Assembly (NCBI GenBank): GCA_016194975.1 | Contig: JACQAM010000004.1 | Span: forward strand, 124,001-188,000 | Direction: 5' to 3' | DNA length: 64,000 nucleotides | Source: Bacteroidota bacterium | Lineage (GTDB): Bacteria; Bacteroidota; Bacteroidia; Palsa-965 | Shown here: piece by piece, positions 21,332 to 23,325 of the stretch | Layout of the letters: every line of letters begins with the position of its first letter | Position numbering within the stretch: the first letter of the stretch is position 1 | The notes under the pieces: generated by a model | What the model saw: the letters and a program-made list of their open reading frames with translations, nothing else | What the model was told of the DNA's origin: nothing | The model's database searches: none | Position numbers and translations under genes: made by a program

Positions 21332-22315
21332 ATGAAAAATCTGATCTCTATCGGCCGCGTTATTGCTGTGACCACCTTGTTATTCACCGGTGTGAATAGC
21401 ATTTCTGCACGAAATTATTTTTTCAAATTCGATCCGGGCCTTGCTGCCGGTGACACCAATAAAACAGATGCGAACGGGCAGAAATCCGGTTTCTGGATCG
21501 AAAAGACGGGCGCTTACGACTGGGAAGGAAATTATATGGCCGGCAAGCGCGAAGGAACCTGGATGGCTTACCCCGTGGGAACTCCAATGCCTGCTTTCGT
21601 TGAAAATTATCACAACGGAAAAAAGAATGGCGTTTCTCTCGGCATCGATCGTGCGGGATATATTTTTCGCCAGGAAAATTTCATTGATGATTCACTCGAC
21701 GGATTACGCCGCACATTTTTCACAGGCGGGCGCGTGAAAACGGAAGAGGTTTATAAGAATGGGAAACTGAACGGCAACCGCAAGATCTACAACAACAATA
21801 ATAAAGTGCAGGAAGAAGGATATTTTGTGGACGGCAAACGCGATGGTGTAGCAAAATGGTATTACACCGATGGAAAACTGAATACAGAATCGAATTACAA
21901 AGGCGGTTCGCTCGAAGGAAAAATGACTACCTATTATGAGAATGGAAATAAATCGAGTGAAGTGATGTACATGAAAAATGACATGGAAGGCGCGTACGTG
22001 GAATACTACGAAAATGGAAAAGTGAAAACGAAAGGCAACTACGTACACAATCTCGAAGAAGGAGTGTGGACCACCACTTATGAAAGCGGGAAAGTTTATG
22101 AGACCGGAAAATTCGTTCACGGCCAGCGCGACGGTTCCTGGAAACAAATGAGTGAGGATGGAAAAACTTCCGGCACCGTGAAATACGCAGCGGGAAAAGT
22201 AGTTTCCGGATCACCAATGGATCCTAAACCAATTCCTGCTGTCCCCGAAACAAAATCCGGAACAGGAAGTTCCAGCACGGGAACATCCGGAACAGGAAAA
22301 CCGAAACGTTCCTGA
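21332..22315 (+). CDS. Exported MORN-repeat (YwqK-like) protein
   Basis: This 327-residue protein has a signal peptide (about 1-25). Nine or so MORN_2-type units of about 23 residues follow, with the cycle YYENGKVKTKGNYVHNLEEG. The last 40 residues are low-complexity (PETKSGTGSSSTGTSGTG). Such repeats form elongated beta-meander surfaces, and in Bacteroidota they are often annotated as toxin-antitoxin YwqK, a label with little functional meaning. No sorting domain is present, so a periplasmic location is likely. It is followed by a good terminator. Confidence 0.85.
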   Translation: MKNLISIGRVIAVTTLLFTGVNSISARNYFFKFDPGLAAGDTNKTDANGQKSGFWIEKTGAYDWEGNYMAGKREGTWMAYPVGTPMPAFVENYHNGKKNGVSLGIDRAGYIFRQENFIDDSLDGLRRTFFTGGRVKTEEVYKNGKLNGNRKIYNNNNKVQEEGYFVDGKRDGVAKWYYTDGKLNTESNYKGGSLEGKMTTYYENGNKSSEVMYMKNDMEGAYVEYYENGKVKTKGNYVHNLEEGVWTTTYESGKVYETGKFVHGQRDGSWKQMSEDGKTSGTVKYAAGKVVSGSPMDPKPIPAVPETKSGTGSSSTGTSGTGKPKRS

Positions 22316-22336
22316 TTTTTTTATTCATTCCACTTT

Positions 22337-22370
22337 CCCCGCCTCTGAAAATGATGCGGGGATTTTTTTT
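22337..22370 (+). terminator. Rho-independent terminator
   Basis: CCCCGC (22337-22342) and GCGGGG (22356-22361) form a GC stem followed by eight T (22363-22370). It terminates the MORN-repeat gene ending at 22315. Confidence 0.85.
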
Positions 22371-22379
22371 AGAGCCAGA

Positions 22380-23272
22380 ATGCAGATCATGCGGAAAATA
22401 ATTCTCTTCTCTTTCTCTTCTTCCCTGTTACTTTCCTGCGCCATTGGCAGCAATAAAAAAAAGATCACGGAACAAATAATATTCCTGCTCCCATTGTGAA
22501 TGCAGTCATTCACCACGATACAGATTATGCAGATCTTGAAATGAAAGTTGCGAATGCAAATGCGCATCCATTCACGGAACAAATGCTGCTGAAAAAAATG
22601 AATGTGAGCGGGAGAAATGAATCGGTCGATTTTTCCCTATTCGACAGGGAAGGACGATTGGTCTCTTCTTCGTCAGGGGGACCGAACCGTTCCGGGATAA
22701 AATATTATTTCAATGATCGCGGGTGTCTCACCGAATATGATCATCTCCGGAAAGACCGCGCTGATTTCATCATACGTTACGATTACAACGACACTCAATG
22801 TGTGCAGATCACGAACATTCTCACCGATGGAAATTACACAACTGTTGCTACTGTAGAACATGATAACGCCGGGAGACGCAGCCGGAAAATTGAAAATGAC
22901 GGGATCACTACTTACACGTACACGCCGCATGGCGATCTTTCCTCTCAGGTTAAATTGAACGCCGATTCTTCGCAACGACACGAAATACTTTTTTTCTACA
23001 ATAAGAAAAACTGGCTCGTGATGGAGGAAGAATGGTTTGAAACGGATACCATGGATATTTATTTTTTCCGTTACGACTCATTAGGACGGCTGACAAATAA
23101 GATCAATTACAAAGAATTTGACCCGGTGGATAAACCGCTGATCGAAGAAAGCTGGGAATACAATAAAGATGGTTTGCCTTCTGTTTATCATTATTCCTCG
23201 CGCTTCATGGCTGAAAATATCAACGACTACACTAAATGGTCGCGGAAATATTCTTACAGCTATTATCATTGA
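22380..23272 (+). pseudogene. Lipoprotein gene with apparent frameshift in an A8 tract
   Basis: A lipoprotein signal (RKIILFSFSSSLLLSCAIG, lipobox LLSC) starts at ATG 22380 or 22389 and enters an A8 run at 22455-22462. In the genomic frame it stops at 22497-22499. With one extra A the frame joins exactly into the 258-residue frame that otherwise begins at GTG 22496, giving a lipoprotein of about 293 residues. The body resembles RHS/YD-type repeats: YYFNDRGCLTEYDH, YDYNDTQCVQ, TYTYTPHGDLSSQV, FRYDSLGRLTNKINY. It may be a pseudogene, a sequencing error, or a slippage- or phase-variable gene. The downstream frame shows no decay. Confidence 0.8.
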
Positions 23273-23317: not shown

Positions 23318-23325
23318 TAACTTTG
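23318..23325 (+). promoter_or_regulatory. -7 box TAACTTTG four bases before the SCO1-like ATG
   Basis: An exact TAnnTTTG match with ATG at 23330. The usual transcription start would fall at or next to the ATG, implying a leaderless mRNA. A T-rich stretch lies at -33, but there is no TTG. Confidence 0.6.

Follow-up and report, generated by a model that had tools for sequence, protein, structure and literature searches.

Phase variation of a lipoprotein by a local frameshift was reportedly demonstrated in a mycoplasma by Theiss and Wise in 1997. The gene described here resembles that case in having a frameshift in a lipoprotein gene, but switching was shown for the mycoplasma only. In Listeria monocytogenes, a one-base change in length of the poly(A) tract close to the 5' end of inlA also truncates a surface protein early; according to PMC2831843, both inlA alleles are seen in strains and their rates of change have been measured, whereas a single sequence is available here. 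Genes of Blochmannia and Buchnera frameshifted at a single poly(A) run, with the rest of the gene open and a possible rescue by slippage, offer another parallel. As described in PMC3017870 and PMC5009743, those genomes are AT-rich and reduced, their runs are long, some of the breaks are conserved between populations, and corrected transcripts were measured in work that these reports cite; here, the run has only eight A's, the genome has about 44% GC and no close homologues were found. The dnaX-type and IS3-type -1 sites treated in PMC9307594 share their A AAA AAG heptamer and its phase with our locus, where, in contrast, no second useful product is apparent and no stimulators were found.

The locus lies on the + strand of a 64,000-nucleotide window, that is, the whole stretch of DNA analyzed. 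It begins with a signal-peptide ORF (22380-22499) of 39 codons with the lipobox LLSC, which starts at ATG 22380, has a second in-frame ATG at 22389 and ends at the TGA of 22497-22499. At 15 nt past the lipobox Cys codon there begins a run of exactly eight A's (22455-22462), between a T and a G, which the signal ORF crosses as AAA AAA AAG. The remainder of the gene, hereafter the body, is offset by one base at this tract. Its frame opens behind a TAA (22454-22456) partly built from the A run and extends from 22457 to 23272, with its own stop codon (23270-23272) as the only stop. The body is counted as 258 residues from GTG 22496, a possible internal start that overlaps the TGA of the signal ORF as GTGA (22496-22499). 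Direct counting of the run, codon reading from ATG 22380 and the arithmetic of the frames thus bear out what a previous sequence-only reading had described, namely an A8 tract, a signal peptide with LLSC that reads into it and stops at 22497, two frames one base apart and a body without internal stops. That reading was silent on the A AAA AAG heptamer (22457-22463), which, read against the frame of the signal ORF, is phased for a -1 slip, on the GTG/TGA overlap and on a terminator-like hairpin upstream.

We tentatively propose, with slightly less than even confidence, that the locus is a real, recent and probably leaky null allele left by a slippage indel rather than an evolved device. Replication slippage would have changed the length of the A run by one base. 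Most ribosomes would then yield a signal fragment of no more than 39 residues and of no use, and the body would be absent or produced in small amounts only, when RNA polymerase or the ribosome happens to slip by -1 on the run. For this reading we infer that the base count of the run is right, that slippage was the cause and that the change is recent, and likewise the level of any residual expression. The lack of inner stops in the body, together with its persisting coding score, points to a break that is young or harmless. PMC2831843 gives a rate of about 5.5e-7 for the A6 to A7 change in inlA and a lower one, about 3.9e-8, for the loss of an A from A7 to A6; loss is the direction needed here if the ancestral run was longer, and its rarity in inlA weighs against a null allele. 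The sequence-only reading had listed sequencing error, recent loss, transcriptional slippage and an on/off switch as options, and recent loss and sequencing error are the two that we favor together.

A prior question is whether the halves form one gene. The signal ORF has a basic N-terminus, a hydrophobic stretch and a lipobox ending in Cys (MRKIILFSFSSSLLLSC), which is the pattern of a type II signal, although as sequenced the lipobox and the mature body are in different frames. Of 20,000 random 123-nt sequences drawn from a second-order model of the genome sample, only 3 contained a signal ORF that has a lipobox and stays open as far as the junction. As for the body frame, random sequences with its dinucleotide make-up contained 13.6 stops on average, against the single stop observed, and just 1 in 5,000 had one stop or fewer. 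Both tests argue that the halves belong together, and we rejected a pair of unrelated neighboring ORFs on these grounds. The coding score per codon of the body, measured in a slightly different way from that of the genes, falls at about the 16th percentile of 513 genes, so the claim of an intact coding body is not strong; this also counts against the proposed null allele. The body would be exported if joined to the signal upstream of it. Its predicted structure, taken alone, had a pLDDT of 31 and gave no usable model.

The GTGA overlap at 22496-22499 might also be taken as translational coupling, with the signal ORF as a leader and the body restarting at GTG 22496 to give a cytoplasmic protein of 258 residues. 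The upstream context of this GTG, with a score of 0.46, is at the 35th percentile of 309 starts, compared with the 21st for ATG 22380 and the 12th for ATG 22389; such scoring is indecisive between ATG 22380 and GTG 22496, leaning slightly towards the latter. Nevertheless, a lipobox would be wasted on a leader, and the segment that scores as coding begins at 22469, ahead of the GTG. By our rough estimate, an NTG/TGA overlap in such a register is not improbable once the stop is a TGA. Moreover, two of the four distant YD-type matches (L003 and L086) have, by eye, an N-terminal signal-like stretch of their own. Taken together, a restart seems extremely unlikely.

Homopolymers are sites where consensus errors gather, and a single miscounted base at the run would give a picture identical to that of the null allele, of which one sequence is known here. 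The run may then differ in length from what was assembled and the gene may be an ordinary intact lipoprotein gene, an explanation that we rank second and consider somewhat unlikely. The assembly (4.1 Mb, 99.78% complete) is in 28 contigs, and PMC3711429 ranks sequencing error among the two main causes of such singletons. We place the genome in the Bacteroidota, as for one enzyme the closest named relatives, among 80 of 592 loci, mostly belong to this phylum, with identities below 60%; two of the records are labelled Legionellaceae and Lentisphaerae, presumably in error. Against such an error stand the remaining runs of this genome, counted per tract and strand in a sample of 864 kb (21% of the genome, window included) and, for some counts, in a smaller sample of 464 kb. 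A total of 132 coding A/T runs of length 8-9 (122 of 8 and 10 of 9) keep their frame in the 864 kb, as do 365 runs of 7 in confidently coding, same-frame surroundings. Runs of 9 and 10 are also present (26 and 3, respectively, in 464 kb), which argues that runs were not clipped at 8. The ratio of 9-base to 8-base runs in coding DNA is 0.12-0.22 in three samples of the source genome, and a fall from 8 to 9 is likewise seen in the coding DNA of two relatives, G007 (16 to 1) and G001 (15 to 2), whereas G006 (3 to 1) and G003 (1 to 1) have too few runs to compare.

The frame screens point in the same direction. Apart from the tract at our locus, no break lacking an explanation came out of them at A/T runs of at least 8 in the 864 kb, although short broken ends can escape such screens. 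In fact, three of the screens missed the tract itself, on account of the short upstream piece or of an over-strict rule on later ATGs, and two flagged it, so other short broken ends may have been missed as well. The screen of 464 kb gave 34 rows of adjoining ORFs, 31 of them with a nearby ATG and 3 with only GTG or TTG candidates. The frame switches at runs of at least 8 were four, three at gene junctions and one in an IS3-like element, where a transposase slip site is of a known kind. Among 330 coding ORFs, 58 lacked an ATG up to 30 nt into the coding segment and, in a scan by eye only, our gene was the sole row of these with a run of at least 8 and an upstream ORF running into it. The 16 two-sided rows in 864 kb (including C23 125404, W 20421 and C23 72534) all read as gene junctions with a start of their own, W 20421 and C23 72534 being judged from the 464-kb screen. 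The nine 5'-type rows comprised our tract and eight others, six of which had, by eye, their own ATG, GTG or TTG start; the row W - 5076 (T8) is on the strand opposite to a long coding ORF, and C3 + 49271, at a run of C7, was left without explanation by eye. The many frame-keeping runs and the lack of a second unexplained break indicate that the assembly is not full of homopolymer errors. We therefore rejected clipped homopolymers or an error-filled assembly as a general cause, and a systematic counting error is unlikely. Should the count at this one run be wrong, the gene is simply a lipoprotein gene so far seen in one genome. Should the break be real, it is a further example of an accessory gene for a surface protein that a homopolymer indel has shut off, and would lend itself cleanly to the question of how much an A AAA AAG null leaks in Bacteroidota. 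Either way, 132 in-frame coding runs against one break illustrate how rarely runs are broken in this genome.

The A8 run itself is common here, as shown by 39 overlapping hits on both strands of the window (28.1 +/- 6.3 expected) and by 173 A/T runs of exactly 8 in 464 kb of genome. Within genes, long runs appear to be avoided, since 208 genes contained 74 A8+ runs and synonymous shuffles predicted 104.6. According to PMC1088944, selection against A/T runs is evident at nine bases in a large proportion of genomes.

These figures bear on a contingency switch, in which frequent changes in run length would turn a surface lipoprotein on and off. The tract lies directly past the lipobox of a product that would be of surface type, 17 of 111 runs of at least 8 A's fall within the first 120 nt of genes, a mild excess for a part that makes up 9.3% of gene length, and both inlA and the mycoplasma lipoprotein gene provide precedents. 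On the other hand, an A8 is short and ordinary in this genome, and the screens brought up no second candidate for such a break. The 464 kb contain 35 lipoprotein-like ORFs; in two of these an A run, of length 8 in one and 10 in the other, lies at most 60 nt past the Cys codon, and both ORFs stay open across it. The on/off option of the sequence-only reading thus found no support, as no homologue with the tract was found either, and we hold a switch to be very unlikely. The lipoprotein-like ORF with the A10 run (near G000:C23 97,265, - strand, L048) is in frame and is a candidate for length variation.

Leaky recoding that is put to use, whether the ribosome shifts by -1 at A AAA AAG or the polymerase slips on the A8, with a steady low dose of the full lipoprotein as the outcome, is another explanation that we regard as improbable. 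In its favor, the heptamer at 22457-22463 is of the slippery X XXY YYZ form and in the correct phase, and would be able to join the two frames. Furthermore, an IS3-like element of the same genome (L044, G000:C23:2284-2292(-)), with HTH_Tnp_1 in orfA and rve in orfB (Pfam), has at its orfA/orfB junction an A9G with the same A AAA AAG in -1 frameshift phase, suggesting that the shift is probably usable in this host. PMC1088944 describes genes of IS elements that exploit transcriptional slippage, and it also presents IS elements of Deinococcus in which nine or eight A's stand in a row. However, no structure beyond that of shuffled sequences was found downstream of the tract (fold z of +1.13, -0.05 and +0.36, for pseudoknot-free folds), and no Shine-Dalgarno-like AGGA, GGAG or GAGG occurs in 22380-22455. 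In 208 long genes, the in-phase heptamer was observed 25 times against 29.2 expected; it is not clearly avoided, as if spontaneous slips cost little, and no homologue shows that it is conserved at our locus. Spontaneous frameshifting in canonical translation is put at 1e-4 to 1e-5 in vivo by PMC9307594. The transcriptional slippage mentioned by the sequence-only reading is accordingly possible at an A8, but nothing specific to slippage was found. A further version has the A8 kept as a dose limiter for a newly acquired and possibly costly surface lipoprotein, with the dnaX-type heptamer enabling a minor but constant share of ribosomes or polymerases to link lipobox and body, or has the gene fully on by a change in run length in some cells; this we also consider distinctly improbable.

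Whether recoded or null, the gene may be poorly transcribed. A hairpin followed by T8, resembling an intrinsic terminator (22336-22370, + strand, inverted repeat I11; fold z of -2.35 for 22320-22380), ends nine bases (22371-22379) before ATG 22380, although it was absent from the hits of a consensus scan. The motif TAnnTTTG, the -7 box of Bacteroidota, was not found on the + strand between 20,285 and 23,317, while SCO1 has one at 23318. The gene has no apparent promoter, and the hairpin just before the ATG and the lack of a nearby motif hint at poor transcription; overall, the window shows no excess of the motif (33 copies, with 49.8 expected by chance), which makes this a weak argument. A gene poorly expressed in any case would tell somewhat against the proposed null allele.

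The gene is placed between a MORN-2 gene and SCO1. These two neighbors are adjacent, with no lipoprotein gene between them, in all eight family genomes that have both on one contig (G003-G010); G001 has them on different contigs, G002 has only lower-scoring matches and G011 has no SCO1 match. Such an absence between the same neighbors indicates that the gene is accessory. No close homologue was found in family and class genomes, plasmids, phages or viral contigs, so that among the genomes searched this lipoprotein gene is known in the source genome alone. A search of 99 genomes matched two and another of 395 genomes matched seven, the source genome included in both. The six matches in the 394 other class genomes are weak and partial (E 1.9e-6 to 9e-4). 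Within its own genome, the gene matched nothing besides itself at E up to 10. Plasmids, phages and viral contigs gave no match at the limits used, and 40 pattern hits in genome contigs all failed tblastn. We regard the break as an ordinary event in an uncommon gene.

The distant matches suggest what the product may be. Judged by eye, three of them (L003, L084 and L086) are proteins of the YD type, and L083 is a long protein of the RHS type. The body itself scores 17.4 bits with TIGR01643 (cut-off 15.8), with E 0.0048 and no single stretch passing, and 10.6 with Pfam RHS_repeat, where the cut-off is 22. These weak matches and the weak YD-repeat hit suggest a small YD-type protein. Three other matches were set aside as chance, L082 for lying opposite a 793-residue ORF, L085 for falling inside a glycosyltransferase-like ORF and a body match in L006 (E 0.003, 23%) for falling inside a SCO1 gene.

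MORN-2 repeat sequence is abundant in the source genome and its family. The MORN-2 protein encoded next to the gene (window 21332-22315) has 37 matched stretches in the source genome; the six other genomes of the family that are at least 97% complete (G001, G003, G005, G006, G007 and G008) have 28-38 apiece.
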